From the NCBI GenBank assembly GCA_031213475.1, contig JARUPZ010000003.1, forward strand, positions 8,734,313 through 8,798,312: a DNA stretch of 64,000 nt, given 5' to 3'. Positions 1,738-58,400 of the stretch are shown piece by piece. The position numbers and the translations under genes are program-made. This DNA is from Nereocystis luetkeana (Eukaryota > Sar > Phaeophyceae > Laminariales > Laminariaceae). The notes beneath the pieces are model-generated. The model made no database searches. It was given only the letters and a program-made list of their open reading frames with translations, and was not told where the DNA came from. The first letter of the stretch is position 1, and every line of letters starts with the position of its first letter.

Positions 1738-2039
1738 AACGCATCGAACGGAGAAGATTGTCTGGTACCAGGTACTACAGCAGTGAATTTTAGTATAGCG
1801 CGCGTGCTCGATTGAGCAAAAAAGCTTGGACAATCGAGGACTAGAAACTGTGGGTAGAATATATATGGTGGTCCACCTTCCGAAGGTATTATTCTTGTGG
1901 ATTTATATTAACGAAGCTTACTTGTCAGCGGGGACATAATAAGCTGGGCGACGATGATCCTGGAGATTCAACACGCACCTTGAATCATTCGCCTAGATAG
2001 AGGATAATTTCGGAAGGAGATGGCAGATCGATCGTTCAG

Positions 2040-2540
2040 GAGAGCTTGAAGCGCCGCCGAGGGGGTAGGCGATGCCCCTCCTATTATCGATCACGGTTTG
2101 CACTGCACTCTCGAGAAGGTCCGACGTGCCTACGAAAATATCGCCTAAAGTTAGACCTCTCGGGACTAAAGAGAGGTCAAATCGGCATGCCTCGCCTGCA
2201 CTGCTGGATATATCCCCCAATTTCAATGCAGATAAGAGCGCTGTGTACTGTAGTTGCGCCCTAGATAAGACCATCCAGGATTGGAGAGCGGTCAAATCGG
2301 CATGTCCCCCGTGCTCTAAAAACTCTCGGTACACACCAGGTATTTCCCAATAATGCAGATAAAAAGTGCTGTGTGCTGTAATTGCGTCCTACCAGGTATT
2401 AAGGTAAGGCCATTCAGTATTGGAGAGCGGTCAAGTCCCGCCTGTACGAATCTGTTTCCGATGCTAATTTCCCGATGCAGATGGGAGCGTTGTGTACTGT
2501 AGTTAAGAACGCCTGTTTTGGCTTGTCGTGGGGCGTTCCT
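2040..2540 (+). repeat. Degenerate tandem repeat, about 3 units
   Basis: Blocks beginning GAGnGGTCAAATCGGCATG recur near 2170, 2286 and 2426. Each is followed by a block reading AATGCAGATnnnAGnGCTGTGT. Unit length is about 115-140 bp. The second unit contains TACCAGGTA (2390-2398) where the first has only TA. A 235-residue minus open frame over this region (2316-3023) has no recognisable domain, so I treat the region as noncoding. Confidence 0.55.
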
Positions 2541-5758: not shown

Positions 5759-8700
5759 TTAGACGACGGGTTCACCGTGAACGCGGAGCCCGTACACACA
5801 CGTCCATTTCCCTCCATGGTTACTCTGCACCTCCAGCGTCACCCACCCCACGGGCGGCGCCAACAGCCGGCTTTCGTCCGACGCCGCGAAAGTCTGCACG
5901 CCGGGAGCGTCCCCTCCCGCCGAGTACTCCACGCCCTCCACCAGCACGTAAGGCCGCGGCTGTGCTGCCACCGAACCTCGGCTGCCACCGCCGCCGCCAA
6001 CGCCGCCAACGCCACCGATGCGGCCAAACCCTGAAGTCGGCGCTGCCGCCGCGGACGGGTCGACGTCCCAGCCAAGGACTCGGAAGGCGCGGGGGGCACT
6101 CTTCGAGGCGGAGGGAGCATAGGCCGTGCGCGCGTGCTCGATAGAGACGTGGGTCACTTTGACGAAGGCCTCGGACGACTTCGCGCCTTCCTCGCCCGCG
6201 TCGAGGTCGGGGTTAGACTCTCCGACAGTCCGACCACTGGCGGGGGCAGGGGGGCGAGCGAGCTTCACCGTCAGCCTTCCCTCTCCGCCCTGGAATGCGA
6301 AGCAGGAGCCCAGCGAGTTAGACGTCGACAGGGCGGCGTCGCCGTCCTCGGCGTAGACTCGCCCTGGCATCCTCAGGAGGTGCAGGACGTAGTCCGCCCA
6401 GGGCAGCATGGTGCTCGCGAGGGTGGGGGACGTGAGCTTGCCCTCCGTCCCGTCGAGGGACATGAGCGGGCCGTAGACGACGGAGGCTCCCGGGATGAGG
6501 GACGCGTAGTCGGGCATTCCGGTTCCGCCCGAGGAGAAGATCTGTTGAGTCCGGAGGGGGGCAAGACAGGGCAAAAGGTGGGGCAAGGGGAAGCAAGGCA
6601 CGGCGCGCAAGGTAAAATAATGCGACGCGACGCAACGTGAAACGGCAGGGCAGGGCAGGGCAGGGCAGGGCAAGGCGAGGCAGGGCAGGGCAGGGCAGGA
6701 AGTGCGCTCGATTCCTTTGCCGGGGGTAAAAGTCGGTCCGGGAAAGCGGAACAGCCTTGGACAAAAACACCGTAGTGCATGCTCATTCCACGACAAAACT
6801 GAACCCTTTCGACAGCCGCGTGGGCAGGGGCGAAAGCAGGGGGGTGCAGGGTCTCGCGGTGGAATTTAGTTGTTCACCTCCACACCGCACAGTACACAGA
6901 ATAGAGTATCGGATCTCGCCCAAACGCAATGTTTTGTTGAAACAAGTTGTCAGTGCCACGGCACGTTCCGGGACAGGAAGGGGGGGGGGCTGTCCCGCGA
7001 CGATAAACCTCTCGTCGCACCTCAACCTCCTGGGCCACAAGCTCTTCCGCCTCACGAGCCGTCTCGAGCGCGCGCAGAGGCGAGGACGGAGACGAGGGTG
7101 TCTCTTCGCCCGCAGAGCCCAAGTTCCGCCAGACCTGCCTTATCTGCTGACGCAGGGCAAAGATAAAGAAACCGTCGAGAACCAAAAAACAAAACAAAAT
7201 AAGGTACGTACACCATAGTGGACGGGTTAAAAAACGACGGAGGCGTCGCGGGAGGGACAGGGGGGGGTGGGGGTGACGGACACGGTGTCGATGTCGTTTG
7301 TGAGCTCCCACGCGGGTAAGGTTACTCGCTACTCGCCACGCACGTCGTCACCGCACGCACTACAGCTATTACGGCAAGACCCGATTTGCAGGCCATCTTG
7401 GGGACTTGACGACAAGGAGGAGCGTGCGGGCAAAAACTGTTTATGTCGGTCACCAGGGGCGGCGTGGGGCGGTCAACAAGCACCGACAGCCGCAAGCACG
7501 AAGCGGCAGAGTCAACGATGAAAAGACGATGTCTTCATGACGCTATTTTTTTCTAACGCACGGTTGCTCGATGCCGGTGGTTTTTTGGCGGCTGCAAGGG
7601 GCGGGCGGACCCCCGTACGCCAGACGAAAACCGTCTACAACTCGCAGCAGGGCACGCTTGGCGCTCACGTGCGACGCAGCGATCAACACCTCCGTGACAC
7701 CGCTACCCTATTCCTGTGCGCAAGCTACCGTCCGTGAGTGTCGGGAGGCTGCCACACAGCAAACGCCACACGTGACGCTATTACGGGGGACCATAGTAAA
7801 TAGGACCTACGGTACACACAAAAAACTATATCTTTCGCTATTTTTACTGACAATATTTGGTCCTATTTACTATGGACCCCCGTAACAGAAATCCATGATA
7901 AAATCAATGCGCGCGGTGGCCGCCGTGTTCTGTTGCTTCCATTGCATTGCCGCCTCCTGCAACGACAACGCCTTTCTTGTATTTTGTTCTTGAAGAAACA
8001 GTCAACGCACCACGCCCAAAATATCAGCCCTACCGCTCGCCGCCCCCCCCCCCCCCCCCCCCCCTCCCACAATCGAAAAGCAAAAAAAAAAAAACGCTCC
8101 CCCAAAGTTGACAATGTCCGCGATTCAAGTCCACCGGGCTTATGGGGGGCAACTAGACGGAACCACCCTACGCTCATTCCAACCTTCATCACACGTATAT
8201 CTCAGTTCAATATTTTTCCTTGGTCATTCCTCACTCAGCATCCATCGTCGTCGACCAAACCACTCACCGTCCATCGTCAACCACTGATCATCGGTCACCA
8301 ACCACCCATCCCATCACACAGCACACAAGGAACGGGCACACGGAAGGCACCCCTGCTCAACTTGGTTATCGTGACATCATTCACCTCATTCGCCACGGCG
8401 GCCTCCACGCGCTGCTGCAAGTCCTCGTCCAAACCCTCGCCGCTAGCCGCGGCCGCCAGCGCTGCCTCCTGCACACGCCGAGCGAGGCGGGCACCATCCT
8501 GCAACGAACACAGCGCATAATACATCACACCAGCACGAGGCACAAAGCCCACGGGGGCGGCGGGACGGGGAGGAAAGCCGAGAGGGCGACAGCGGAAAGG
8601 CCGCGGGAGGGTTAGAAAGTGGGTTCGGGGTGCGGGTGGGGGGTGTACTCGATAGGAGAGATGTACTCGATCTCATGCATGGCCGTAGTCGTATGACCAC

Positions 8701-12669: not shown

Positions 12670-13988
12670 ATGTAGCCAAGCTCGGAGGTGAGAGTGCGTA
12701 CCTTTTCCCGCTGATATGGGTGTGCAGGGGGCGGGCGCGGGGGGGGGTACTTCGCACTCCTTGGATATTGGGGTGGCACGTAGGCCTCTCTCCAGCAGGG
12801 CTCACCAGGTAACGGTAACTCTTAGAAAACAGCAAACGGTACACACGCTAGTGGTGGAGGGGGGGGGTGGGGGGCGTAAGACCTGCTCGAACCCGAGAGA
12901 TGCGGGAACCGAAAAGAGAACACGAGCAAAACGAATCGTACATCCACACGGAGTACAAGGTTTCCCTCCGGGAGGTGCCTAGGGGGGTGGCGCAAGAAAG
13001 AATACTCGTCGTTTGCAATACCTGCACACCTGTCGGTTTAGAACTACAGTAGTAGCTGCGTCCACCCATCATTAATAACGTGAAGAACACACGCATATTG
13101 TTGGTGTCAGACTACGCACATACACCTATTTTTGAGGACAGAATATGTACCGCTGTTTGTGGCGGTAGTGTAGGGTCATTACTACTACTACAATAATATA
13201 AAAGAGGGTATACGGGTAAGTGGATATTGATCCTAAACATGTGACTCGCGGCCATCAATCCAGCGCTTGCGGCGTGACCGTAGGCGCAAAAAAGTCGCGC
13301 GAGGTCGAGGTTTGCGACATGATGCTTTGTGACCGGCTGCGTAAAATCCAGCACATACAACATATATTCCCGCAAAATGAATGTTTCTTGGCGCTCAGGG
13401 TGAAACAAACAGAACATCGAGATGCTGAGAGTACTCGCAGTACATCCTCCTCGCAGTACATATCCCCGAAGTACTGCCAGTGCTTCAAAGTATTCGAGTT
13501 GTCCCCAGCAAAAGTAATTTGCTCCAACTCCCACTCGTCGGACCATCTGTGAGTGATTTGGGCCTGAGAATTGTCGACACGGTGCACTGACGGTCGAAAC
13601 ACACTTACTCCAAGTACCACTGAGCATATTGAGAGTATTTCGGTACTGCGAGTACTCGCAGTATGAACACTATTATTACCGACGGACGAAATACTTACTA
13701 CTGTAAGTATACTTGCAGAACTCGCATCAGTACAGAACCCCGAGATACATGAAGCACTCGCAGTATCTGTGCAGCACAAACCCGAAATACTGCGTGCGCA
13801 CGAAGCATCTACAGCAGTGTTTTCTCGGGCATTCTTTGCTTTGGTCCCAAGTATTGGGAGCAACTGTGGAAGGTTGAGGTTGTGTACGCATGCCACACAT
13901 AAGCGCGCCCAAACTCCGCGGACTTCCACGCGTAAAACACACACAACAACATGTATTGTATCATACCTCGTACGCGTACATATATCTA
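12670..13988. other. Between the SUN gene and MITE copy C
   Basis: Any missing first exon of the SUN gene should lie in or beyond this stretch, but I could not identify one. From 13400 to 13800 the DNA is full of palindrome-like words built on AGTACTCGCAGTA. The long minus frame over it (13255-13944) is compositionally a repeat translation. TACAGTAGTA occurs at 13045-13054. Confidence 0.4.
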
Positions 13989-14106
13989 TTACGGGGAACC
14001 ATAGTAAATAGGACCTACGGTGAACACAAAAATCTACCAGGTAGATATTTATCTTTTGTTAGTATTAATAACAACATTTGGTCCTATTTACTATGGCCCC
14101 CCGTAA
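13989..14106 (+). mobile_element. Stowaway-like MITE, copy C (with CCAGGTA insertion)
   Basis: The ends read TTACGGGGAACCATAG and CTATGGCCCCCCGTAA, with an intact TA duplication on both sides (13987-13988 and 14107-14108). Relative to copies A and B it has seven extra bases, CCAGGTA, directly after a TA (14035-14043). Removing them restores the alignment. Confidence 0.88.
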
Positions 14107-15131
14107 TAGTAGGGCAGAAAAAGCAAGGTGGATGTACTGGTACAAAATAAAAAGGTGAAAATAAAAAAGACGCGAGGATCGTGGGAGTCGAACGCCGGTG
14201 ACGCAAAGATACATGCGTAATCAAGCGCGGGTTCGGTGACCATCTATGCTACAGCAGTACAACTGTAATGGTATGTTTTTTCGTAATCTGAAGCACATTG
14301 TAGGACCGTTTAGAGTAGCTTGTACAAGTACAGCTGCATGTACAGCAGTGTTGCTACTGCTGTAAAATGCCATGCTATAAGATACGGCAGCAGAGGATAC
14401 GCGTACTGCGACAAAAGGAACGTGTACTGCTGTGCTGTTTCAGCTGGTGCTAGGGCCTATCGGTCAGCAGTGTAGAACATACAGCAGTCAGTAACTACTG
14501 GAAGTATTATTGTACGAATGCTGCTGTACACGATGCTCGTACGACCGATTGGTTGTACTGGACTAAACGAATGCAAACGATCCAGGGATGACCCGTACGG
14601 AACAAAATATGCCGGTTACACACAGCAGCAGGTGTGTGCATAGGCCACAATGCCGATGACAAAACATTACTACTGTAGTACTGAGAATGCAGCGCGCATC
14701 TTCCGCATGCGCATAGCATGCTGCCTGCTTCTGTTGTCGGCGCACTGTGCCGAGCACAGCTGGAGCAGTGGCGTTGTTGGACCACACACAGCAATACGCA
14801 GCAGAAGCAGCAGGGAGAGAGGTGATGATGATACAGGTACGCCAGCCTGGGTTTGTACGTAAAAAAAAAATGAAAAACTGGCACGTACCTGGTAAGGCAG
14901 ATGGTGAAATACGGACGACAGGCTCCGACAAACACAACGAGCCACAGCAATACTGCGCATATGGGTGTGTCGCGCACGCACGGCGTGTGGGCGGCAGCGT
15001 TGGAACGAAGGGATCTGTGAGTGTCTGTTGCGTATCTAGTGTGAGGGAAACAGACACATACACCTGGACAACAATCTACCGATACGTACGTACAAAATAA
15101 GGCCTCTCGTGCTGAAACCAAGGAATTCGTC
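14107..15131. other. Intergenic, TA-bounded short motifs
   Basis: No gene is supportable. The stretch is rich in TACAGCAGTA or TACTGCTGTA (14250, 14355), TACTACTGTA (14668) and TACCTGGTA (14886), plus single-mismatch versions. Two long minus frames (14507-15211, 14563-15063) have no domain and overlap the last exon of the next gene out of phase. Confidence 0.45.
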
Positions 15132-18100: not shown

Positions 18101-19579
18101 GTCGCCCGCTCACAGCAAGGGGTGCTCGCCCCCCTCGCCCTCGTGAGGCAGATGCTGCTAGCGGTGGCCTCCCGATCCCCGTCAGCGTTCCTCCTCCACT
18201 CACTCCTACAGCTCCCGGGGCAGTGGCAGCGGCAGCAGCAGCAGCAGCGACGGAGGGGGTCGAGTCCTGCGCAAGGGAGTGGCGGCCGTTTGCCACAGGC
18301 TGCCGAGGCGTGCCGTTAGGGGCGCCGTGGGGCGGGATAGCACCCGCAGCGGCACGGGAAATGCTTCCGTCGACTTGCTGGGACCCCGACGGCGCAGGCA
18401 CTGGTGTTGCTGCCGTGGCTGTCGCGGTTGTCGAGTTGCCCGTGCTCTTGCGGCTGCGCTTGCCGGGGGCGGGCTGTAAGGTGTTGGTGGAGGACTCAGC
18501 GTGCTGTCGGCAATAGAGGAGGGAGACAGAGAGGGGGTACATGCATACGGGCAGTTCGCTTAGAGGGAGGAAGAACATAAGTCAACCACTTCGGTTGCAG
18601 GGAGGAAATAATTTCGGCCGGTTCGGGTGGTGGCTCGAGTTGAGAGAGGGCGCAAGAACGGGGCGTCGGTTCCACTGTGGACTTACACAGTACGACTGAC
18701 CGATCGAATCATATCGGACAGGATCGGATAACACGGGACCGAGCCAGCATATCGGCTCGGGTTGGATCTACAGTAGTACCTGGTAGTAGGAGGAGGAAGG
18801 GAGGCGAGTGCGGCCAATAACGTTAGGACGGCGTTCGCAAAATGTATCGAATGCTAAGCCGCAGGGTTCTCGTTTTTTGGGTTGGCAATCGTTATCGGTT
18901 TCTCCATACGAACTTGACCACCGTCGTTCGACGCAAGTAACGGGCGACCGCAAAAGTTTTGATGTTGCGCGTGCGGCCCTCGAAATTTATGACAGCCGGA
19001 AGAGGTAAGAGCACTCTGTAGCATCACCACAAAAAAGAATGATTACTCCTTCGGTAAACAAAAACAAAAATACAGGGAAATCAGGTGTCGATGCAGGACG
19101 CAGTCAACTACTACTAGTAGGCATAAGTTCCAGCGGAAGGCGAAAGGTGTTAGCCACCGTAAGCTCTTGATCATACGCTGTTACCGCTAACAGCCTGGTA
19201 TTGAAGAGACCAAAAAGCATGGCATCTAAATCTGCCGTAGAGAGCGGGCGTACACAGCGGCAGCACCAGGTCATACCCCACAGCAGTAACTTTTGTTGTG
19301 TCGTAAATACGTTCAGTTACAAGCTGGATGTTAAGATTGAACGGGACGAAGCGAGTGTCTGTCCTGTTGGCCGGTGGTTCATTTCAGGCTTTTTCGAGTT
19401 GCCGCACGAAAGACGCAAGTGACATCTTTCTGGGTTCCAGAGCATGTTGCATGTTTTGCATGTTGCGTTTGTCGTGTCGCTCCTCTTCGTTTCGTGCGAG
19501 CGTGCGTGCGTGCGCCCAGCTTTGGGAAACGAGACGCACCGTGCGTCGTGCCCAGCAGTGGAAAAGGCCAAAGGTACAT

Positions 19580-19627
<48 letters not shown>

Positions 19628-21247
19628 CGTAAGAAAGGCGGAAAGGCAGGATATTCTTCCGGTTTCGCGCGAACACGACAACGTCCGTACTGCTTTTTAG
19701 GGCGAGTACGTATCGTGCGTACCAGGTATAACTTATCACGTACGAGTATGAAAAGAGGGATGAACGGAGAGGAAGAGGGAAAGAGGGACGAACTGAAGTA
19801 CGTTGATTCTGTGATACAACAACGAGTACACCGTATACCGCACACCGCATATCGCGTATCAGGTATCACGCCGGTGGCAATAGAGTACCCACACCCTCGG
19901 ACGAATTTCGGCCGGTGATGGTGCTCGACCATGGGGAGGGTGCGAACGCCGAACGATGTGTCTACGGAAATATACCCCTGGTAACTATTAATAAGATACC
20001 ATACGACATCTTCCCATCGCTGCCATATTCATCGTGAACCTCCGTTCCTCCCTTCCCATCCCTCCCGCCTGCCGTAGTTTCGGAGAAAAGTTCTGCACCA
20101 GGTACTGGTATACCGGTATTTCTCTCGGGACAGCACGGCAGTATTCCCACGCCGATACAATCTGGTTAGACCCTCGTGCAATCGCACCCTTCTTGATGAC
20201 TATTCTCTGCTTCTAGCTGATGCTGCCGCTGCTGTGTCGGCTGGGGGGCGTGTCACACCCACGATTCACTTCCGCGATCACCTCGTTCGACAGCACACCT
20301 ACGGTGTCCTGTAATAGAAACCAGGTATATCGAAGCAGAGAAGGCAGGAGCAGCAGAAACTGCAGTAAATAAGTTCGTACCAGGGTATGTAGTATTTGCT
20401 GTACGACACGAGAACTCTTGCTTGCACGAATCCACATCGATCAAATCCCGCGCAATCGCAAGACCTCGCGACAAGAGAGCCTTGCCTCTCGGGAAGTGCT
20501 GCACATCTCTCGAACTGCCAAAATGAAACCAACAGCAGCCGAGTGTAAACCAGACCAGCCACATCAGCGGCAGCAGGCAGCAGGTAGCATCAGCATCACT
20601 TTCAGTTTCGAAGTCGGAGCAATCAGGCGTCGTGCCTGATCCATAAACGACCGGCATACTCTGCCCTATACATATACCAGGTATACCGGTAAAGGTTTGT
20701 GTAGGGCCAGAGTTTGGGACATCGCCGCGAAAGTATTGCTGCTGTGTCCGCAGGGAGAGAGCACCCTGTTTGCACCGACCTCTGCGCCTACGACTACCAC
20801 GAGACCCACCTCGCCGGTGCCACCACCTATCACTGCTGCCGCAGCCGCACTAGCCCTCCTCCTTCCGCCTGTTGACTTCTTCGCCGCTCCAGGCCTCTTG
20901 CTGCTAGGGTTGGCGCCGCCTGCTCTGCCGTTGCCCACATCCTGCTCCTCCTTCTCTCCTCGATCGTCTCCCTTGCTTTCTTCGTCCATGTCCTCCTCTC
21001 CCATGCTTGCGTCGCTGGTTCCCGATTCACGACCCGAGCTCCTCTCGCGCCTGCTTCGTTTAGGCCGAGGGGCGCCATCGTTCTCTGCGTTGTCTTCTTC
21101 CTGGGAGGTGACGCTGCTTGATCTTCCTCGCCGCAGCAGCGGGGCGGAGCCCGGTGCGGCAACAGCCGCAGTGGCAGCACCCGCTACCAGTTTAGTGGCG
21201 GTTCCAGTTGATTCTCGAGAGCGTTTTTGGCTTGTTTTTGGAGGCAT
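15132..21247 (-). CDS. Unrecognised protein with two hydrophobic segments (6 exons)
   Basis: Exons on the minus strand: 21247-20765, 18503-17782, 16427-16331, 15963-15636, 15510-15389 and 15242-15132, stop TAA. All six join in phase, giving about 620 residues. The donor at 15635 is a near-consensus GTGAGTAAG. The ATG at 21247 starts a basic region (MPPKTSQKRSRES), followed by an acidic and serine-rich stretch with basic patches such as KRSRRER. Residues 162-402 are Ala/Gly/Pro/Ser-rich. Residues 415-434 (CLLLLFMLLGARVVWTVTLM) and roughly 440-475 (LTACCIVSVFVMHVVGIVVG and following) are hydrophobic and probably span a membrane. The tail is soluble. I recognise no family. The phase agreement is strong evidence for the model. 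The exon 4 acceptor has a weak pyrimidine tract and is the least certain junction. Confidence 0.7.
15964..17781 (-). other. Introns 2 and 3 of the 620-residue gene
   Basis: Exon 3 (16427-16331) splits this stretch. The 5' intron holds the dispersed repeat at 16560-16825, G runs at 16519-16558 and 17092-17111, and a C run at 17558-17572. The 3' intron has A-rich tracts near 16002-16020. Confidence 0.5.
16560..16825 (+). repeat. Unclassified ~270-bp dispersed repeat, copy 3
   Basis: Runs from GGCCGGAGTCGTATGACCA to GGTGTGGCCACTTC, after a double G run. It keeps the internal blocks GCGCGAAGCGCCGTGAGG, GGCGAGTCGCATGAAGGG and AACCGCTTCTGAGGCGG. It lies in intron 2 of the 620-residue gene. Confidence 0.75.
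18504..20764 (-). other. Intron 1 of the 620-residue gene
   Basis: A 2.26 kb intron, donor GTGCTC at 20764 and acceptor CCGACAG at 18504. It contains a (CAG)n array at 19581-19627 and exact TACCWGGTA motifs at 18777, 19720 and 20675. TACAGTAGTA at 18769 shares its terminal TA with the next motif. Poly-Gln, poly-Ala and poly-Cys frames over the array are translations of the repeat. Confidence 0.55.
19581..19627 (+). repeat. (CAG)n microsatellite
   Basis: About 15 uninterrupted CAG units lie inside intron 1 of the 620-residue gene. The array is flanked on its left by TACATA. Confidence 0.95.
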
Positions 21248-23681
21248 GGCGCTGTGTGGGGATGAGTTTACCGCCTGATTTCCACGTAATCTTTTTCCTT
21301 GCGCACTTGCTCTGTTCCTCTCGCGCAGGCCTCTCGATCCCCGTCTCTACCTACTCCTGCCTTTGTTCCCTCTCTACCGGTGCGGGCCAAACCTGAACAA
21401 AATCTCAAAAACAAAGTCTCCCATTCCCCTAAACAGTAAAGCTTCAATATAGTTGAACTCTCCTTCTTCTTCTTGCAAAGGAAAGAGAAGAGAGAGACAA
21501 GCAGCACATCGTCTTCGACGCTGATACAAGGACACGGAATCATGGAAACCGCACCGAGCGAGACGGTCCCCGTGTACTTCTGTCATGTTTGCATGTGAGT
21601 GTGCCAAACGGCCCCCTTTCGTACCGATTGGCGAGCGCCCCGGGAAACAACCACACCCTTTTTTTTCGTATTTGTATTTTTGGTCCATCATCATCGTCGT
21701 TTTCGTCGAACGCACAAACGCGTGCACAACAGGCGCAGCAGTAGTCTAGAAATAAGGGGGAAAGGCTGATATTGATGCCGCGAGAGAATGCAAGGCTCGA
21801 CTCGTACCTCGCCCCGATTGGGAAGCGGCCGACCCATCGACCCACCCTACCCGATAACGTACCCGGCCTCGAGCTGGAGAGGGGGGCAATTGAACAGATG
21901 TTAGTGGCCCATCGATCGGGGAAACAGATATCATTGCGGCACAAAAAGCAACATACAACTTAAAAGCAGCAGTTTATAAACGACTGCAACATCAAATCGG
22001 CGGCTACGAATGAAAAACGGATACCAGGTATGATATTCGAAGTCAGCACTCGATGTACGAGTACGTACGGCAGCAGCAGCAGTACGAGCACAAGGCACCT
22101 GGCACGCTACGAACCGTTTGCCATCGTACCAGGTGCATAACATACCGAGTCTACGCACGGCTGTATACAGCAGTAAACCTGCTCGGCGGCTGTACGGCAG
22201 CAGGATGTACGTTGCCTGCTGGTTGTATACCTGGGTACCTAAATATCATACCAAGGTACAGTAGTACCTGGTACCTGGTATGTTACGTACCAGTACAAAA
22301 TTGAAAATTGCGATTCGCGATTGGATGATCAAATTGCGATTTGGAATGGTCAGATTTCTCGAGTTTTTCCTTTTTATTTCCTTTCAATTTCAATTTTCTG
22401 TTCGTGACGAAGAACTGGTGCGCACTCGTATGATACTGCTGTACTGCTGTACTGCTGTACGAGTACGCACAAGTTTTGCAACACACGAAGCACGAAGCAC
22501 CGCAGGACGCGGGATACCTTTCCCCGGGCGCGCTCGTATGTTCGCATGTACGTATGTATTATACAGCGTATTGGAAGAAGGCAACGAAGGAGCAGTGGAG
22601 CGCAGACAAACCACCGTCTTGAAGTCTTAACCCGACCTTCCCTCGTCGCGGACGCACGGTTTTGGTGCGCACGCCATTAGTAGATGAGCAGCTGCGGTCG
22701 GGCGATGCATGCATGGACTCTGTACGCCAGGTACATAATGGTGCAGTATACGTATGGCCTCCTAAACTTGGAGAATGTGAGCGTTTTCAGCGTATTCGTA
22801 TCACAGAGACCAGCGTCTTTCCAAAGCTTGGTCTTTGGTCCGTTGTTTCGTTGTTTCGTTGTTTCGTCGTTCCCTCTTTGTTTTCCACGATGTTGCTGGG
22901 TTTCTTGTGGTACGGGTTTACACCTAAAGATATGTTGAGATGACGTGCATTCAAAATATAAACCAAGTTGGTGATTTTCTGCAACAAATACCTTTTATGT
23001 AAAAAAAAAAAAAAAAACACGTGAGCGGAAATTACAAAGGTTTGTCGGAACTTGTAGTACATTCAGTTTTACTTGTATATAATGGCTCGATGTCTTTATT
23101 GCCGGTACTCGATTACTTTGAGAGCCATACGTACAAGTGTCTCGCTACAAAGAGTTCTAAAGGTTGATGGGCTGTGATTCGTGCGCCAGGTCCACGCGTA
23201 CAGCTTTGGAGCACGTAGCATAGGTCGTACGAAGTGCATTTGCCAGCGCGGAGAACGAGCCCCCTCGCAAACAGAAGGATAACGCACATTTTAGATGAGA
23301 GGACTGGCGAGGTTATGATCTTTCCTCTTCACTCCCACCGAGCCCCCGCTGGCTGAGGCCACATGCGCTAGACATGTTTTATGTAGTTTACTGCAAACTT
23401 CTGCAAGTGTTTCTGAACTTTGTTGCCACATCAGGCCACCTTCTACAGTCCAAAGGCCGGTACTGCTGGACGTGTAACTTTCGTATACTGCTGTCCATGT
23501 GTAGCTGGTGCTGTTTTCGCCTCGTCGTCCGAACGGGTTTTATGCGATGGGGGTGAGGAAAGAATGGCGGAGTGATGTGAGGTGCGGGGTAGTGTGGGGT
23601 GAGATATCGAGGAAATGACGTTTATCGTTTCTATGACACAAAGTATCTCAAACGAAAGACCATCTCTTATGGTTCGCCTTA
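21248..23681. other. Promoter-side intergenic region
   Basis: Lies 5' of the 620-residue gene. No other gene is supported. It carries TACCAGGTA (22022), two TACCTGGTA sharing a TA (22265-22280), TACAGTAGTA (22257) sharing a TA with them, TACAGCAGTA (22166), and three TACTGCTGTA in a row each sharing a TA (22434-22459). It holds the densest cluster of these motifs in the window. Confidence 0.5.
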
Positions 23682-25589: not shown

Positions 25590-26670
25590 TTAGGGCCTAT
25601 CTCAACGGGAAAAATTTCGTGATTCTCCGCCAATAGTTTTTCGTTTGAGTTGATTTGCATTCGATTGGTCGAAAAGTAATTCACCAAGCAGGCATTTTGA
25701 CTCTTGATTCGAATAAAACGATAAAAACGAGTTCGAGAAGAAGTCTTTTGGGATTCTTGTTGCTCTTCGTGTTGTTCAATTTGGGGAGTTTGTTCAACTC
25801 GACGTGGCATGTCCCTGAAACCGAAGCGAGCCACGCAAACTTGAGCCGTGTCGTCGACTGCTTCACGGGTAAGATCCACCATTCCCGAGAGACAGGGCTA
25901 CCGGAGCAGCCGCAGCGCGAGGTCGGACAGCCCCTAGCACGGAGTAGAGCATCCGCGTTGCCTCAAAAATTCACAACGCCGTCGCAAACCCAGTTTTTTA
26001 TATTTTGGCCTCACAAACCACGCGAGCACCGACCAGGTCACGACTTCGCTCACACGTTCAATCGCTGTATCAGTGTCGCTGCTGCCTGCGTGGGACTTCG
26101 GGCCTGCGCCAGCCACTCAAGACGTCGCAAGAGCGATAGCCTCTTCGGCAGTGCCGGCTGAAACAATCGGCCGCTGGCCGCGGCGCGCCGGGGAGGACGC
26201 GGGCCGTCGCTCGCCTCGTTGGTTGCCCTCGGGTGTTCGTTGACGCTTGTGCGTTATTCGATAAGTTTTGAATACGCTATTCCTCGATAGAACCCAAAGG
26301 CATATCTCCCACGAAATTCTATTCAAATCAAATCAAGTTAATATTTTCCAATTCGATTATCATGAATAAGGGTTTTCGTCAAGACGGGCCCTTACCATCT
26401 ATCACCCGCCGTCAGCGAATCACGTACCGGTTTCGCCTTGTAATACGACCAAGTTTATTACACGCCGTTAACGACGAGCGATTGGCGGCGGATAATTACC
26501 CGGAATGGCCCGCAAGAGCAGCGAGCGCTGGCTACCAACCGGCAAACGAGCTATTCAGTGAATGCCTCCCTCTCTCCACTTTCCGTGGCCGCCCTCGCGC
26601 TCTCGCTTCCATCCCCCGATCGCTTCACGATGGCGACCTACCCCTTCTCTGATCGACTGCTTTTTCAACG
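25590..26670. other. Intergenic, no gene seen
   Basis: An open frame at 25655-26161 and its antisense partner have no domain. Nothing else is recognised before the foldback units that start at 26671. Confidence 0.4.
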
Positions 26671-26941
26671 AGGGCTGTTTTTTAGGTTTATTTCAGTATT
26701 TTCACGAAATTTCGATATTTGTCGGTTTTTTCCTATCTGTAGCAAAATACCGAAATTTCGGGAAAATACTGAAAAAAAATGAAAAACACTTCCTCGTTAA
26801 AATTGAGGGCTGTTTTTTTAGGTTTATTTCAGTATTTTCACAAAATTTCGGTATTTGTCGGTTTTTTCCTTTATAGGAAAATACCGAACTTTCGGGAAAA
26901 TACTGAAAAAAAAACTGCAAAAACACTCCTCGTTAAGATTG
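26671..26941 (+). repeat. Two tandem foldback units (135 and 136 bp)
   Basis: Units 26671-26805 and 26806-26941 are direct copies. Each folds on itself: TTTCAGTATTTTCncnAAAT faces ATTTCGGGAAAATACTGAAA, enclosing GTCGGTTTTTTCC. The ends ACGAGGGCTGTTTTT and AAAACACTTCCTCGT are also roughly complementary, so each unit may be a small transposon duplicated head to tail. Confidence 0.8.
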
Positions 26942-28564: not shown

Positions 28565-28616
<52 letters not shown>

Positions 28617-29127: not shown

Positions 29128-29144
29128 TGAGTAACTTTGAGTTG

Positions 29145-29744: not shown

Positions 29745-29862
29745 TTAATAGCTGCACTGAAAACACGGTATCCCAGTCACAGCGACACTTTGTACGAGTA
29801 CGATATGTTGCTACATACCTGGTACATGGCTTTTATTCAAAGACAACTCGTGTACGTGGTAA

Positions 29863-31105: not shown

Positions 31106-31689
31106 CCACTACCGCTACTCCTATTATAATTTCACGACGAAAACGCTAGGAAAGACGCTCGTAGGCGTTCCCTGTTGCTAGAGTGTCGTTCGAGGCGACT
31201 TGCCGTATACCTCGTGTACAGGAAAGGACCGAAACGTTCAGCCGTAAACTCAAATCGCAAAGTACATGCAGCGCAAACCCCGAAACATGAAGGGATGCGC
31301 GCGGAGGTCATATGCACGAGCGCACACGGCGCGGAACGTTTCAACGCTTGCGCTTATGTTGTTGTCCTCTATACCTGGTGCAGCCGGGGGGGGGGGGGGG
31401 GGGGGGGGGCGGGGGGGGGTCACTGTTTCAAGAGCTATCGCCTGCTTCGTGTGGCTCATGCTGGAATAATGATAGGTGTCCCTTCCTTTTCACGCCTCAA
31501 GCCCCACGGGTGTCAGTCACTACCGTGTGAATCATACGGGCGGAAATATAAGGATTGTTGAGGCATATCGATGAACACCAGGCTGTCCCTGTATTTCCTC
31601 CCAGGTGGTCTGATAGCCCACCCCCTACTTGGGCGAATTTCCGAGCCGAGTCTCCCTCCAAAGCAGGGGGGGGGGGGGGGGGGGGGGGG

Positions 31690-35700: not shown

Positions 35701-38700
35701 CTCCTCAGGGGTTTCGGGATGCCGGGAGGGATCGGCGGGATGGGGATGGGGCCGGGGGGTAACGTTGGCGACTACGCTTTCGGAGACCTGTCGCACTTGA
35801 TCCAGCAGCTCATGGCGGCTGACACGAACCGGGTGAGGTGTTTGTTCTTGTGTGTATTTGGTGTGTGCGCGATGCCAGCAGTGCGAAGGGTGTGGGGCTA
35901 CGTCGGGGTGTTCGTTTTTTTTTTCCCTCGCGTTTGTTTTCCTGTCTATTCCTTTTAGGGCTGTAGTTCCTTTCTCGGGACAAAAACCGCTCGAGCTCCA
36001 AATAGGTTGTCCCCAAAACGGGACTGCAGCCCTAAGAGGGTTGATGTTCGTTTTGTTAGTAGTTTTCGTTTTTGATTGTTACGCGTCTATTCAGGTGTGT
36101 ATCTGTGTTTTTTGTTAATTTTGGCATTGTTTTTACTTGTTTTTTAGTTGCTACGAGTACACGTGTTATGTATTGTGTGTGTTTTTATAGACGAGTATTC
36201 GTAGAGTATTTTACTTGTCATTTTGAGTACCTTCCCGTGGATGACTGCAATGCCCATACTGCTGCTGCTGCTGCTGAGTTCATTTGGCCTTGCGTGGACT
36301 GATTCATTTTTAGCACTGCGCTGGCTCAGTCGTCAAGTCTTACAAATACAGCAGTACCTCATTTTCGCGCCGTATGTCGCAGTACCAATACCAGGTTATA
36401 GGGTAAGCGTGACGATGTAGTCGCGCAAGTAGTGTGTATACCTGTTACCGGTATGTGGCAACTTGGTATACTTTCCCTCTCCCCTCCCGCCTCGACCTTC
36501 TGAACCCTGCATCAAGGACTAGCGCATGATTTTCTGCCCCCGTGCGGGTGGCTTCGTTACTCCTACCCCTCCTCGTTTTCTTGCTTCCCTTTTCGTTCTG
36601 CCCCCCCCCCCCCCCTCCCCCAGGCGCGAAGGCATATGGTCATACGATTACAGCCATGCATGATATCGAGTGCACCTCCCCGCCTCACCCTCGCCTCACG
36701 GTTGTTGTAATGGTGCCTAATTTAGGTCGTCGCTGTGCGTTTTCGCTCTGCTCCGTCGTCTCTCGTGCCTCCGCGTGCTTTTCGCTTTTCTGTCGCGCGT
36801 TTCCTTATCTCGTGCCTGCGCACTTTTTTTGCCTCGTGTGTCATGCTCGTATTGCGTGCCTGCTTGCCTGCCGAAACTGCCCACCGAAACTGCACTGCGC
36901 TTGATTGGCTGGCTCCCTCAGCACGGCCCGCCACCGGCATCAAAAGAAGTGGTGGAGAACCTTCCAACAATCAAGATTGAGAAGGTGGGAGAGATACACG
37001 GGCATGGGCACGGCGGACATTAAAAACTCGAGTTGTGAAAAATCGGGGGGAGGGGGGGGGAGGAGGGGGGGGGGAGGGGGGGGGTGGGGGGGGGGGGAGG
37101 GAGGGGGGGGGGGGGGGGGGGGGGGGGAGGGGGGGGGGGGGGAGGCGATGGGCGGGGTTGTTGGCGAAGGAGAGGAATCGAGAGCAAATTTCCCTCCGTC
37201 CGTCACCCAGCACACAGGCGCACCTACCTTGTGTTGGGGGGAGGGGGGGGGGAGGGTACTCATTTGTTTCTTGCGTTAGTCATTTGACCATTGACCACGC
37301 GTCCCTTTCGAGGGCTGATTGAAAATGGGGGGGGGGGGGGGGGGGGGGACACTCCACTGAAAGGCCCCTCTCCAGGGCAGAGAATTGCGAAGTGTACGTA
37401 CGAGTATACCTATTTTTTGTTTTGTTGGTTGCTACTGTTCGTGGCCTCTTCATCGCCGATACCTCGTACACCGTCAAAATCCTCGAGCATTTCTACCAGG
37501 AGGGGGTGCACGTTTCCGGAAGTTGTATCTGACGAATGGTTTTGACGGGAGTTATCTTTTGCCGCGTACGTCAAATGGTTACCGTTTGCCTATTTTTTTT
37601 CGGAACCTAGCAAAAAACTCGACGGAGAAATTGGCGCATGAACCCGATCTGGGAAGAAATGTTTTGATCGTTTTGATACGGATAGTACAAACGCTCGTTC
37701 ATCGTCTCGAAGTGAATGGCGGAAAGTGATGGGTTGCTCTCGTCAACGGCCAGCTCCGCGTTGTTTTTGTGTTTCCCAAGGAACGGTGGAATGTCGCGAT
37801 GCTTTGCTGGTCTCGTCCTAAATGGCACATGCGTTGCTGGTTTTAGCCCGTGTTAAGGTTTGTTTTTCCTCGATCGGCATATAACGGCTTACTACCCTGA
37901 TATTGTATCCGATCCCCTTAACCCCCGTCGGTCGTTGGTGTGTGCGTTGTTTTTTTGTTCAGTTCGTTGGATACGTGTTCGAAAAACATTCCGAGTAGCC
38001 GAGAAACAAAAGGGATGTTTTGCTCCGCACGTTCCGTCGTCGACTCTATGGAGACGAAATAGACGACCAGGTGTAAAAACAAAAAATGTTACCTGGTATT
38101 TGTTTGCATCGGACGGCCTGAAGGACAAAAGGCGAAAAGCTTAAAGACTGTCTTGACGCCACCACTGCTGTGCTGTGCGCTGTTTCCCTTCCCTCCCCAA
38201 GCTTCTTTGTCGGCACGGGAAAGCGAGGAAACAATACTCCCTGCTGTTGTCTACCTATTACGGGGGACCATAGCTAATACCTGGTAGGGCCTATGGTATT
38301 CATAAAAACCTACCAGGTATATATATAACCATTTTTACTAACAATATTTGGTCCTATTAACTATGGTCCCCCGTAATAGAGGTCCACGTTTTTTTTGTTT
38401 TGTTTTAGTCCGGTTTTTCCTACGATTACATAGTGGGAGAGGTACTGTAGTGGATTCCTAAACTCGCCCCGCTATTAAGAGCCTTTTTTTCCTTCTGCCA
38501 GAAACAGCTTGATTATGATACTGTTATTTATACATAGACTACCAGATAGTTAACGTGAGACCTTTTTGTTGTTTGTCGTTGTAGTTATATTCGTGTATGA
38601 GCCCGTTTTTTTTCTGTTTGTGTACCGCCGCTGTCCCCGCAATGGTGGCTATCGCAAAAGGGCAACGCGCTGGAGGGGCAGGAGTGCGCCGTATGCAAAG

Positions 38701-39838: not shown

Positions 39839-42329
39839 CGGGCGGCACACCGGGTGGAATAATGGGCGGCAGACCGAGCGGTGGACCGCGCGGGGCGAGG
39901 CGGTTGAAGCCTCAGCTGTCGACCTCAGCTGTTTGTTGTTGGGAAAGGTCTGTTGATCGGCCGCGTCTTTAGGATAGGAGTATCATGCTTCCCCCCGGCC
40001 AAACAAGGAAAGGTGTGGGACTTAAAAGGAGCAAAGGCATGGGCTCGTGAAGGCAGTGGAAGCGATGCGCCTCGCCACCACCTCGGGATTTCGTTTGGCT
40101 AAAGCGCCCGGTGGGGGGAGGGGGGGGGGGGGCGGGTGGGGTGACGCGTGTGTGAAACCCTGTCGCCTTTGGCCGGTCTATTGTAGGCCTGGGGCGATCG
40201 GCGAAATAGAATAACGACAGGCTTGTTAGCCCTCTTCTTGTGGCGGTGGGTGGAGCGGGGTTGGGCCTGCGAGAAGAGGGGGGGCCATGGAGCGGGCCTC
40301 GCCCCAATTTTTGTTTTGCGTGCAGAGACGTTCCTGCATATACACCGACGATTGAGGTGGTATCGTGATCGGGGGGGGAGGGGGAACCTTGAGTGTTAGG
40401 GGGGCGTCCAGAACCGAAGCGACTAAGCTAAAGTGTAAATGTGACAGAACATGCACTTGTTGCTGCCTTGTTTTCAGGCCATGCGGAGTGAGAGCCCGGC
40501 GCGCTTCTACAAGCGCGGTTCGAACCGCGGCGACGACAGCGGTGGCGATGATGATGATGACGACGAGGTCTTGATCGTGTGGTGGTTCCACCGACATGAA
40601 AATAGTTTGATCCGAAATCGTAACTTGGAAACCTAGGACATATACCTGGTATGCGGTAGCGTTCGACACAGGAAGGGTGTGGGGTGCTCGCTCGGAGGCC
40701 CTTTTCATGACAAAGCGACCACCGCCGCTGCTGCTGCTGCGGTAGGCGGGCAACGGGTCAGGAGGCAGCACTGACTGGCACAGTCAACCATAAAAAGTCG
40801 ACGTACTTGTAGTCGGGCGCTCGGGTGACAGACCGCTCTCCCCACCACCACCACCACCACCACCCCCCCCGCCGCCCTGCTTCCCTCGCTCGCTCCCCGG
40901 CCTCTTCTTTTGTTTTGATCCACGAACCTACACGAGTGTCATACCCCGTACGCGTACGCCTTTCCTTTCTGCGATACAGATACTCTCGCATAAAACCCTC
41001 ATGGGTGCTGGGCACGACCGCGCGCGCGTCTTGAACTTTTTTCTTCGCTCACATCTCTGAACCGAGAGTCTGCGATAAGGGTAGCAAGTCGTGCTAATGT
41101 ATTTATATTATTTTGTCTTGCTTCTATGTATTCATTTTTTGTGCCGTTGAGAAGACCCATCGATGTGTGTGTGTTTTTTTTTTCACGTGGGTGTTGTGTG
41201 GACGGGCCTCTAGGAGAGAGCATGGCGGGACACGTTGGGGAGGGTATTATAGGAGGCGAGGGACGGGGAGGAGCTTCGATAGATCCACACGCCCTTCTGT
41301 TTGAACTGCTGTTTTTGGATCAGTTGAATCGAGCATGTTTTCTATTTTTTGGATCTCCCGCTTCTTACGGTCGTGCCCATTGTACGAGGTGGGCCACGCG
41401 TATTTTTTTTTTCTCGAGGGTATATCGACTGGGCTAGCGACTGCCCCTTTTGTTGGCGACGATCAGTTGGGGTCTTGCGCGCGGTGATGTACTAGGCACC
41501 CTTGTTTCCTTTCGAATGCGTTTATTCTTTTGCTGTGCTTGTGCCGGTTCGTATCTATGACGACTACTGTGCGGCGGGAAGGTGTTGAGGGTTTCGAGTA
41601 GGGGGTGGCGTTTTTTTCGTTGAAGACCGCATGCTGTTCTCGGCATATAACTCAGCAACTACCTACTATAATTCGTATTCATGCGTTTTGTGGTTTTGTT
41701 TTTAACCATGGCCTCCCGGCCGTGAGATGGATGCACTGGACATGACACCCTGTGTATTGTGGTGCGTCGTGCTTGTTTGGCCGTTTTTCGGTTGCAATCA
41801 CAGCAAAAGTTAAGTGGAGGTCGCTGGCGCCGTTTTTACGCCTCGCTTTTCCCGAGGGTGTCAACCTGAGGTCTCTACAAACGGAAACGTTAAAATCTGT
41901 CCTCTACTGCCGAACAGTCAAAAGTAAAAAAGACACTCCCTCAGCTGTGAGATGGAGGATTTCGTCGCAGCTCATGACTGCAAGCTGCGCGTGATACTTC
42001 GATCGCGCACGTTTCGACTTTCTTGGGGTGTGGGTGGGGTGCTGCGTCATCCTGTACATGCGCGTAAAACACAATAAAAAGGGGAAAGCTCATCGCCATC
42101 CCTTTCGATGTTGCAAGCAGCACCTACCAAGAAAGCGGCCACTGCGACTGGAAGCCGGGCTTAGATTCGCCTAATACCCCCGAAGTTTCTGATGTTCTCC
42201 GCGACGGAAACGCCAAATTTGTCCGGCAGCCCGCGTGAAGATCGAAAATCCGTACTTGTGCATCTTTCTATGTTGGGGCGGGTCATCTAAGTCGTCGCTC
42301 ACCAACGTACCTGGTATACCTGCACAGCT
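39839..42329. other. Downstream of the RING gene
   Basis: Mostly no supported gene. One stretch deserves mention: a good acceptor (TTGTTTTCAG at 40482) precedes an open frame reading MRSESPARFYKRGSN and an Asp run, with a stop at about 40636. It could be an alternative last exon of the RING gene or noise. A G run lies at 40114-40131, TACCTGGTA at 40643, and a CAC tract at 40843-40862. Confidence 0.35.
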
Positions 42330-54046: not shown

Positions 54047-55455
54047 AAACATTTCCCGTGGACGCGACTCGCCAACTGAGAAATTCCCGACTGTTTGTTG
54101 TTGTCGTATCCCATGTGTATTTTTACTAAAAACAACAGTTCTGGTGACCTGTAAGTAGTAGTCTATGAGTCTGTGTATGGCAGGGATTTTCATACATTTA
54201 TTGCAAAATGCAGCCTGTTAGACGGGGTATATGGCCGCCCCAACGAGGAACACTTGAAAAAATAGGTGTTAACCCGTGCCGCAGCATGCATCATTTCCTT
54301 GACGACGCCTACGCATCCCAGCCAACCTAACTGCCCGGCACCTCGACCACGTTAGCTGCCAACTTCCCGCTTCGTTGACGCTTAAAGCTCGACTCGTCTC
54401 GGTCATGATGTGCAACAAGAGCTACCACACTGCCGAACGATCGTGTTGTCTGGGCCGCTTGTGCCTCTGATGAAGGGGGTGGGTGCTCAGGGCTCAACCA
54501 AGAAGCGAAACCTGCAGATCGAGTGTGCACGAAGATTCCACGGGCATTGACTTTGGACGAGAAATAAAATACGCGATCTTACCGACGACTTGCTTTATCT
54601 GACGACCGAAAGGTCGTATCAATAGTCAGAATTACACATCTGACGACCGAAAGGTCGTATCAATAGTCAGAATGTGTGCGGTTGGAGAGCAAGACGACAT
54701 CTGGGAAATAAAAATGCCTCCACCCGCTCTTTTGTTGAGGGATCGTACATGGGCGTTCGAATGTGATCGAGGCCCTTTTGGCATGCAGCGCGTCCTTTCA
54801 AAACCTATCTGTCATCCTGTACACCCGGTTCAGCAGCTCGCTGACACTCGCGCGACAAACATGTAGCTCTCGACCGCTTCGCATTGCTAGCCGGTATGTA
54901 TCGACCCGTCCTATGGTAGAAGTACAGCGGTTGCACCGAATCAGTTCTGACTGGCGGGGGGGGGGGGGGGGGGGGGACGTACTTGACCGAGAAACATACC
55001 AATATCGCTGAAATTCCTTTCATGCTTATATAATATGTTTCGTGGTATACATTCGGCCATGGGGTTGTTTATCTTGACATATATTTTGTCTATTTCCGGG
55101 TGAGACAGAACTTTTCGAATGAGGATGTTCAATAGCAGTAGGAGCTATCCTTACCGCACCACGCGTCTATACATACCACCTCACGAACGTATTCCGTCTC
55201 GGTGCACGCCAGCTATATTTTGCCAGTAGTGCTAATTGTACCGCTACGCGTCGTTTGAATACCCTCACGAAGGGCTTCAACTCGCCTTGCTCTCTATGCT
55301 TGTTCCGGGCTTTCGCGGAACCACGGGCGCGCGTCAGGAGATATCGAGCCTCGAACTCCTGACCCCATCCTTGCAAAGACCCCTTCCTTTTCTGTGTTTG
55401 ATGTTCGCAACAAGTTGCACTGTTTGTCGAGAAAAGGACAACATTTGGGCAGCGT
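54047..55455. other. Intergenic with paired hairpins and a G run
   Basis: Contains the double hairpin repeat (54599-54674) and a long G run at 54955-54976 followed by ACGTACTTGACCGAGA, a likely scrap of the ~270-bp dispersed repeat. No gene is supported. Confidence 0.5.
54599..54674 (+). repeat. Two direct copies of a hairpin word
   Basis: A roughly 34-bp sequence containing ACGACCGAAAGGTCGT occurs twice with an 8-bp spacer and no differences. Each copy can form a 6-bp stem closed by GAAA. Function unknown. Confidence 0.85.
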
Positions 55456-58400
55456 TCACAGGTTTACCAAGATAATTCTATTTACTTTACTGTAGAATTT
55501 CCCGGATGTAAAAGCACGGCCGATCTCGAGAAGGCTGATCCAGTCGTTGTCCGGGAGGCCGACCGTCGTGAGGGTCATAGTTTGTACCCCAACACCCTCG
55601 ATGCCGAGTGCGTTACAGGTCGTTCCTGGGTATGAATCGAAGGCTCTGATGACCTCCCCGTTGATTGCTGCCTGATCGGCGAAACAAGAAATGCACGAAT
55701 TCGGCGAAGAGCGATGTCATATGGATGCCACAGCGATTTTTCCACAATACAAGGCTGTGGGACGTCAAACCTTACCTGGTACGTAAATAGTCACTGGAGT
55801 AAACTATCACAAGCGGAGATGTCCTCTGAAACATTCGTCCTTCTTGGCATATCGCGAAACGTTTGCAGTTGCGAGTACGACAAATGACACATAAACTATC
55901 CAGGAGGAATGGAGCCGTTACGCAGGGGGTACCTGATGATACGGGATCAGAGACATATCGCAAAGGCTTCCAGAACTTCGAACGAAACCCCGGTGGTCAC
56001 TCAGGCATAGTGCCTAAACAATATGTTCTTAATTAAGCTGCTCCAGGGCAACTAGGCGGCAGGGCGGAAGATGATGCCGAACAACTATGTTAACCCTGGG
56101 TGGGAGGAGGACCAAGGTAATTTTCTCCGTTACATTTTCATGTTTCTCCCTCAGAGGGGTCTTGGCGAGTATTGAACCACTCGCAACCAGATGATCGAAA
56201 CCACGCGTCTGGACGCTGCGGACGCTACAGTACAGCTGTAGCACAGGACTGACGATGTTGCTCGTTGCGATCGATCTTTGTCTGTACACGAAATCCCTTC
56301 ACATTGTGGTCAGCAATGGGAACTTGAATCACCACGATCTCGGACTCTCGAGAAAACAATGAGAATACAGGACGCACAGTAAATCACGAAGAGGTTCGTT
56401 TGAAACTGCTTTTGTTTATTCACCTTACTTCTCACCTTTGTTCCTCAATTTTGCATATCACTGCTGTACGCCTCGATGGAAAAAAAGGAACAGACATGCA
56501 AGCAGGTTGGTGACGCATCCGAGTTAAACACAATCCCAAACTTGATGCCTACAACATGATGCCAAGGTCAATGTTGTTTATAGCAACAGTAGCAGGTCGC
56601 CTGTGCCGCCTACCTCTAGAGTGCGCGAGCGTTCGCCTCCCTTCCAAACCGCCACCTGGACGTCCACGATATCCTGAGGGCCTTCAAACGCGAATTCAAT
56701 CTTGCATAGTCTCCCATCGGGCACAATCGTCTGTGTGCTGGACCACCTGGATTCGCTGTCGGACTGATGCCGTCCCGCGACAACGCGGGTGGGTGTACAT
56801 CCGTCCTCTTGACAGCCGACCATGTCGCTGTCTTGGCCGGGGCGCGTGTCGTAGGCGTTGGCTGCCACGCAGATGGTGGTCTTGGTGCCAGCTTGGACAT
56901 AACCATTGATACACGGCGCGCTCGGACCGATGCAATCGTAGCGGCCCTCGACGCACGTCAAATCGGAGGCAAACGTACAGGTGCATTTGCAGCAATCGCC
57001 GCCGTCGTAACCGAACGAATTCAGTCGAAACGTCTATCGTTAGGACTTGTCGAGACCCATGACCGACGGACAGTAAACAAATATGTGTAGATCATCATCG
57101 CGGCAAGTATCAGCACGCTGCACGGGGAGACTGCACAGCTGGGGCTTGTAAGTCTCGGTTTTATCTTCGAACCTTCGTCGTCGATGGACGTCAAAACTAA
57201 AATTCCAGTCTATGGCGGTTGGAACGTACATGCGCGCGACGACGAAAGAATCTCGTCCTCACGAAGACGCTCCGATACCAGCCGTGTCAAGGCGACACAT
57301 CGAGCACCTCAATTGAAGGACCTCAAGAATATTGCAGGTGCATCCCAAAATTGTAGCCTGCGTCTGTGCAAGAGGTGCTAAACGTGAACCATTCGTGTTG
57401 TCAACGAACGGGAGATGCAACGATATTCGACTATACCAGGTACAGGATATATGCACACTACAAACCGTTCAGTACACGACGGGCGCCCTGGCGAGGCGTC
57501 ATGAAAAACGCTGTCGTCAATGCTGGGCAGGGCCGTCTTTAGCACCGCAGACTGAAATACCAGGTGGACACCCGCCTACTCCGCGGAATATTTACCGGCT
57601 GCATTCTACCGTTTTTGTCGTTTTTGATACCCCACGTCGCCATTTCTCTCTCCGGTAAGACCGTCGAGAAACGGGTACGAAAACGCGTTCCTGGACGTAA
57701 CGCGCCGTCGTGACGCGCCATTCTCAACCACGATATCGCCGTCCTACATTGACGAGGGCCAGGGTGCCGTAGATGACATCGCCGCGGGTGGATACCGTGA
57801 CAAGATCGAGAATACATTTTATCGGGTGGAGCCATCATTTACGCGAGAAAGTGAGACTCTCGAGCCCCCCCAACCCAACCGCGGTCATGCCAGATGCAGT
57901 GCCTGTTTTTCGTGGAGCTGGTTGGTGTCATGGCGTTGCCCTACCAAACACGAACTGAACTCGCCCAGACGTTGTCCTGTACCCCGAGAATCCGTGCTTA
58001 GTTTCAGTGGAGAAGCGTGCGCCATTCGTGTCGTTGTGGTAACTTGCAGGTTGGTACCAGCACAGCAAAATGTGAGAGAAGCCAAAAGGATGAACAGTCG
58101 CGTTTGGAGGGAAGGGGCGTGTCATCAGCTTCATTCGCCGAAGATCGTCCGAGAGCCGGAAGCAACTATACGCCTCCGGGTGTTCTTGGCACACGACAGC
58201 ATTCTCGACAAAACATCGAAGGAACCAGCTGGACGACATTGTTTTGAAAATAAACGGAGCATTCGAAAACTGTTGCGCGACGCACCGCATCCCTCGTTGT
58301 TGTTATCCGCGTCGCAGGTTCCGTCTGAGATGGAATTGCCACCGCACAAACTGGTTGTTTCTTCTGTGTCCGAGGAAGGGTGTGTCTCCGGGAGGGCGGG

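Follow-up and report, generated by a model that had tools for sequence, protein, structure and literature searches.

The nine-base word TACCWGGTA recurs throughout a 64-kb window of the genome of the brown alga Nereocystis luetkeana (the window being the whole stretch of 64,000 bp analyzed here, C3:8734313-8798312; the labels C1, C2, C3 and so on denote contigs of the window's own assembly, which comprises 465,085,209 bases in 1,987 contigs), and its copies are very probably the excision footprints, or scars, of a Tc1/mariner-type, Stowaway-like miniature inverted-repeat transposable element (MITE) of 77-79 bp that targets TA. Excision by a TA-targeting, Tc1/mariner-like element was the first of two guesses in the original prediction, and it is supported by a gain of sequence at TA, a symmetric target preference, a graded spectrum of remnants, and resident elements that have CCA...TGG ends and are flanked by TA.

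The 18 occurrences that the original prediction had placed in the window are all present, compared with a mean of 0.24 in dinucleotide shuffles of the window; none of 100 shuffles reached 18, and the largest shuffle count was two. Because TACCTGGTA is the reverse complement of TACCAGGTA, the ambiguous base W reflects strand only. Two other 100-kb blocks, from C1 and C2, contain 25 and 23 copies (66 scars per 264 kb together with the window), and the assembly as a whole contains 182,395, the reversed word being found 1,744 times. This is roughly one per 2.5 kb, with minor classes on top, and at about 105 times the control it is far from the frequency near expectation that the original prediction had named as counting against it. 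Words one base removed from TACCWGGTA are also in excess (112 vs. 39 expected), which is what old, decaying scars would give. Apart from a few matches expected by chance, the words are very probably repaired donor sites. Several lie within copies of an abundant host MITE family, TA-CGGGGG(A/G)CCATAG..., which is the real family behind the "Stowaway-like copies" of the original prediction, and whose copies in the window carry no word, one or two, as had been described. The footprints, minor-class words and host MITE copies of the window are as follows.

1766..1774, footprint TACCAGGTA
2390..2398, footprint TACCAGGTA; in another copy of the repeat, nearby at 2211-2298, the word is missing (11-bp gap)
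14035..14043, footprint TACCAGGTA within a host MITE
14886..14894, footprint TACCTGGTA
18777..18785, footprint TACCTGGTA adjoining TACAGTAG
19720..19728, footprint TACCAGGTA
20675..20683, footprint TACCAGGTA, followed by minor-class TACCGGTA at 20684
22022..22030, footprint TACCAGGTA
22265..22280, double footprint TACCTGGTACCTGGTA with one TA in common
29816..29824, footprint TACCTGGTA
38090..38098, footprint TACCTGGTA
38278..38286, footprint TACCTGGTA within a host MITE, at CCATAGCTAA-TA-GGGCC
38311..38319, footprint TACCAGGTA within the same host MITE as 38278, at AAAAACC-TA-TATAT
40643..40651, footprint TACCTGGTA
42308..42316, footprint TACCTGGTA
55773..55781, footprint TACCTGGTA
57434..57442, footprint TACCAGGTA
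20378..20387, minor-class word TACCAGGGTA; further copies at 43855 and 63178, and as TACCCTGGTA at 59147
20111..20118, minor-class word TACCGGTA; further copies at 20684, 36446 and 45127 (a short word, of which chance copies are expected among the window matches)
1079..1196, host MITE copy without footprint
7778..7895, host MITE copy without footprint
13986..14116, host MITE copy with one footprint (14035)
38255..38386, host MITE copy with two footprints (38278 and 38311)

The 7 bp are a gain at TA, and repeat copies are mostly without the word. For 77 sampled sites, the flanks were collapsed to a single TA and aligned to the remaining sample. Usable junction-spanning copies were found for 23 sites (the other 54 had none), among which the copies were majority-empty at 12, majority-filled at three and neither at eight. 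For control words of the form TA-N5-TA, 303 of 880 had usable copies, with 29 majority-empty, 195 majority-filled and 79 other; the empty-to-filled difference between the scar words and this control is significant (Fisher p 4e-8). Clean 7-bp gaps appear in alignments of several unrelated repeats, including those at 38278 and 38311. Against other host MITE copies, the word at 38278 gives 15 alignments with a 6-8-base gap and none without a gap, and the word at 38311 gives 17 and seven, respectively. The earlier claim that deleting 7 bp restores the alignment holds for these two sites, but at 14035 the gap is 13 bp in the best alignment and at 2390 it is 11 bp, so that 7 bp is not the sole difference there. 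The minor class TACCAGGGTA/TACCCTGGTA likewise appears as a gain in host MITE copies. Variation by base substitution, the other outcome named beforehand as telling against the original prediction, is not the pattern found: copies differ mainly by gain.

The DNA on either side of the scars shows a TA-centered preference that is symmetric and extends to 8 bp. After removal of the 23 of 170 flank sides that resembled a neighboring scar, 147 remained (144 unique); these have T or C at +1 and hardly any C at +2, reach a T frequency of 0.46 at +6 (vs. 0.26), and have A or T at 0.75 at +7 and 0.69 at +8, returning approximately to background from +9. The same bias is present in left and right flanks taken separately (77 sites, before removal). 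Scar sites also lie in TA-rich DNA (0.085 vs. 0.048). The minor words CCGG, CCATGG and CCAGGG/CCCTGG have a similar preference, with T at +6 in 25, A or T at +7 in 36, and A or T at +8 in 35 of 46 sides. A symmetric preference around TA is expected of an integrating transposase dimer.

A single TA of the host MITE (ATAAAAACC-TA-TATAT, here termed site 2) displays the range of scar forms. It occurs with TACC in 1,797 cases assembly-wide, 1,243 of which are CCWGG followed by TA, although these are not all independent because a scar may be copied together with the host MITE in which it lies. A further 99 cases have CCWGG, then non-T, then non-A, and are CCAGGG in 95 and CCTGGG in two (hand count); the 20 of them that were read are all short scars, some decayed or compound. 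The 27 cases of CCWGGT plus non-A, all read, are mostly decayed or compound scars, and include four longer CCWGGTGG forms and one with unrelated sequence soon after the scar. Among 20 cases read from the remainder (∼428) are CCGG (nine), CCAG (four), CCATGG (two), and single instances of CCAAGG, CCCTGG, CCGGG, CCA, and a decayed CCAGG; the second TA reads CA in two of the CCGG/CCAG cases. The forms CCGG, CC(A/T)GG, and CCATGG would arise if a CCA...TGG element left behind two or three bases of each of its ends, and the remaining forms need trimming, mutation or another end type. The word TACCGGTA is in excess across the assembly as well (25,126 vs. 9,325).

Elements with such ends are present at another TA of the same host MITE (CCATAGTTAA-TA-GGACC, site 1), where 28 cases have TACCA followed by a base other than G. 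Of the 18 read, several hold scars such as CCATGG (two of these identical to each other) or CCAAGG, or else host sequence that has changed, and two, on C26 and C30, hold the same foreign sequence. Both residents are 79 bp in length, are flanked by TA to the left and right, and start with CCA at each end; the left TA belonged to the search word, and the right TA did not. The ends are CCACTCCGACCC / CCAGTCAGACCC in one resident and CCACTCTGAACC / CCAGTCTGACCC in the other, the terminal inverted repeats match at 15/20 and 17/20 positions (C26 and C30), and the host sequence resumes as GGACTTGTGGTATAC in one and GCACCAAATATTG in the other. Since they occupy different host MITE arms, the two are most likely separate insertions. 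Because residents begin with CCA at both ends, CC(A/T)GG would be a joined product and not an element end; the original suggestion of an element with CC...GG ends is supported, with the ends refined to CCA in place of CCWGG.

A profile search of ∼320 kb recovered two clear relatives of the 79-bp element, which were also used to build the profile (C1:1054001-1054077, flanked by TG/TA, and C1:1032867-1032944; end repeats 19/24 and 17/24). Both fold into a hairpin better than shuffled sequence (z -2.6 and -3.5). A partial relative lies near C1:1034658 (E 2e-6), and a weak candidate lies in the window:

31530..31608, possible decayed relative of the 79-bp element (nhmmer E 0.0049; no hairpin signal, z -0.34)

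The ends of the resident and the best C1 copies read CCACTCC, CCACTCT, CCAGTCA and CCAGTCT. Other candidates were set aside. A 674-bp inverted-repeat pair at C2:2062424-2063097 appeared to start with CCWGG, but other copies in the array are without CCWGG, and the word there is therefore a scar inside a repeat. A 29-bp pair, TACCTGG...CCAGGTA, proved to be a single locus counted twice in overlapping loci. In a large inverted-repeat element at C2:7.92 Mb, TACCAGGC is ordinary sequence in both arms, and the two unplaced contigs that carry this element are 100% identical duplicates of the chromosome. The pattern ATAAAAACCTACCWGGVB (99 matches), aimed at residents, gave short scars in all 20 cases read.

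These features suggest a mechanism in which insertion of a CCA-ended MITE would duplicate TA and yield TA-CCA...TGG-TA. To judge from scar lengths only, excision would leave a three-nucleotide 3' overhang, CCA, on each flank; the terminal A's of the two overhangs might then overlap as an A.A mismatch, and fill-in of the CC stretches with repair would produce TA-CC(A/T)GG-TA, a gain of 7 bp. Trimming could lead to CCGG, complete fill-in to CCATGG, and an element with one CCC end to CCAGGG. Excision is inferred from the spectrum at one host TA, where both TAs and terminal bases remain, and we infer that most scars derive from this MITE family, which would be mobilized by a transposase not seen here.

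Recurrent insertion and excision at one TA can also generate scars that share a TA. The shared-TA double that had been pointed out at 22265-22280 is real, and the double form occurs 15,917 times assembly-wide, against two in the control. The 59 listed plus-strand doubles comprise 23 AA, 17 TT, 14 AT, and five TA, and the 19 of mixed orientation rule out plain tandem duplication as the only cause. A triple, TA-CCAGGG-TA-CCTGG-TA-CCAGG-TA, occurs within one host MITE.

Several results weigh against attributing the scars to this element. No transposase with CCA ends was found: the DDE_3 profile gave no matches, and of 28 DDE_1 matches, the eight loci examined showed TA-flanked repeat pairs of weak similarity only (at most 13/18), with no CCA...TGG pair; a search with PF01359 was uninformative, having matched no control either. 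Residents are rare, at two of the 18 site 1 cases read and three or four relatives in the ∼320 kb searched by profile, and none was found in the 67 non-canonical site 2 cases read (of 554). The CCAGGG class calls for one CCC end, which no element seen possesses, and the first 100 listed CCWGG+TA cases at site 2 divide into A 63 : T 37 by hand count, which is not 1 : 1. Doubles in the same orientation outnumber those of mixed orientation (40 : 19 of the 59 listed, p 0.009), so some doubles may be duplications. Finally, the 182,395 words do not equal independent excisions, because some sites within repeats have been copied from a single event and because some unplaced contigs duplicate chromosome DNA; C809 and C1099, for example, are 100% identical to the stretch C2:7916001-7926000 over 8-10 kb and are probable assembly duplicates, by which assembly-wide counts may be slightly inflated. 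The predominance of scars over residents implies either that excision far outran the survival of insertions or that another source family is gone.

The alternative that best withstands the evidence, although we consider it improbable, is that the scars do derive from TA-specific excision but come mainly from another family with CCA, CCC or CCWGG ends, lost or unseen, and that the 79-bp MITE is just one of several users of the same process. The small number of relatives (two clear, both in the profile, one partial and one weak) is in keeping with this, and the near absence of CCTGGG beside CCAGGG at site 2 hints at a second end type. The residents, in contrast, lie at a scar-bearing TA of that same host MITE and have the predicted ends; a scan of the sampled sequence for TA-flanked CCA...TGG inverted repeats, which overlooks copies whose TA has changed, such as C1:1054001, found no pairs.

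Removal of internal eliminated sequences in ciliates takes place in the development of a second nucleus. It is conceivable, if rather doubtful, that the alga similarly removes fresh MITE insertions almost routinely, by a host-controlled or domesticated TA-specific excision in the germ line, with scars accumulating in place of elements; if true, the mass removal of elements would have a counterpart outside the ciliates, with its record in an inherited genome. The ciliate elements and the MITEs of Blepharisma are described as removed "during development" (PMC9942856), whereas the scars of the alga are in the assembled, inherited genome.

Direct micro-insertion, in which an enzyme adds five bases and a TA at TA and no longer element was ever present, is highly unlikely. 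It would account for scars greatly outnumbering residents, for triples such as the one above, and for the lack of the element among the non-canonical site 2 cases, but not for the graded spectrum of CCGG, CC(A/T)GG, and CCATGG, which are the remnants expected of CCA...TGG ends, or for the presence, in that host MITE, of an element bearing such ends; the second guess of the original prediction, an unknown process adding five bases, is thus not needed. A selected palindromic protein-binding motif, or tandem duplication or slippage, can be dismissed almost entirely: the word is nearly palindromic and same-orientation doubles are in excess, but copies differ by a 7-bp gain more than by substitution, one-base neighbors are in the excess that decay would give, and tandem duplication does not yield the mixed orientations seen.

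As excision footprints of a TA-specific MITE, the scars are ordinary in kind. The footprints of Tc1/mariner elements (Sleeping Beauty, Mos1, Minos, ZB, Passer, Ppmar2, Osmar5) similarly consist of a few terminal bases between two TAs. The transposases of Sleeping Beauty and of mariner place a nick three bases into the element, and the 3-nt 3' overhangs make up the footprint (PMC7827188); Minos often leaves a 6-bp footprint or a deletion (PMC3386967); and lengths reported for several Tc1/mariner elements are 2-4 bp (PMC7913693), 0-4 bp (PMC9976928), and 1-4 bp (PMC9632168). The scar core in the alga is mostly 5 bp, with one form by far the commonest and ∼182,000 copies in one genome. Stowaway footprints in wheat relatives retain 2-4 bp next to one TA and 1-2 bp next to the second (PMC1925063), and because the summed range of 3-6 bp includes five, a core of 5 bp does not by itself fall beyond known footprints. 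Plant Stowaway MITEs resemble the element of the alga in being short, with a TA target, folding inverted repeats and repeated gain and loss at one site (PMC1925063). The element has a TA target, is under 500 bp (77-79 bp), and can fold on itself, as Stowaway elements do, and shares with Tc1/mariner elements a TA duplication (in both of the two fully read residents) and terminal inverted repeats. Its ends (approximately CCACTCYGNCCRGAAATRTAAGGAAC) differ from the Stowaway consensus CTCCCTCCRT given in PMC1925063, and it is therefore described as Stowaway-like and not filed as Stowaway.

What is unusual is how many scars there are, their uniformity (with one form dominant), how often a given TA has been used again, and how far scars outnumber residents. 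The footprints treated in PMC1925063 are at one gene's intron, and those in the cited papers come from single loci or from plasmid or cell assays, whereas the scars here are genome-wide. Among the matches listed by a literature search in one open library, nothing concerned such scars in brown algae, which is not proof of absence, and a word search of the main text of PMC12477816 returned no occurrences of "footprint" or "excision." The scars form a natural long-term record of one transposon family's excision, target choice and end-joining outcome, and allow the question of why scars exceed resident copies to be asked directly. They also add 7-bp, frame-shifting changes throughout a brown-alga genome, in which most past insertions escape a count of resident MITEs.

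Other TA-bounded words are enriched as well. In the window and the C1/C2 blocks, TACGAGTA/TACTCGTA occurs 48 times (4.6 expected) with mostly unrelated flanks, but 17 of the 24 sites with copies are majority-filled and none majority-empty, and a gain is therefore not shown; we presume a likeness of TACGAGTA to the Minos footprint. The TA-bounded word TACAGCAGTA occurs 42,001 times assembly-wide (955 in the control) and forms a shared-TA triple at 22434-22459 of the window; the +6/+7 preference of the CCWGG scars is absent in 28 of its sites, only two of which have usable copies. TACAGTA is weakly enriched (72 vs. 19).

The target of the host MITE family looks, by eye, like CTAT-TA-ATAG, and CTATTAATA is itself strongly enriched (44 vs. 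0.83). One host MITE copy, at C1:21794859-21794931, close to the end of that contig, has its interior replaced by AACCCT repeats, and another, at C7:5751046-5751563, has a CCAGGG scar followed by TA-CTTCGAAG-TA, possibly the scar of a different element.

The window contains several further features.

5759-6865, minus strand, fragment of a SUN (Sad1/UNC) domain gene, closest to brown-alga proteins; the best named match of the reading frame is Laminaria digitata (81% over 57%)
23664-30763, inverted-repeat structure of 7.1 kb whose arms, ∼714 bp long, are 86% alike
29035-29748, inverted-repeat element of 714 bp with terminal TTAA (TTAACCCTTTTAGAA...CGCAGTCCCG), which we take to be piggyBac-like in form
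33825 to at least 34664, long (AAGGC)n-type repeat array

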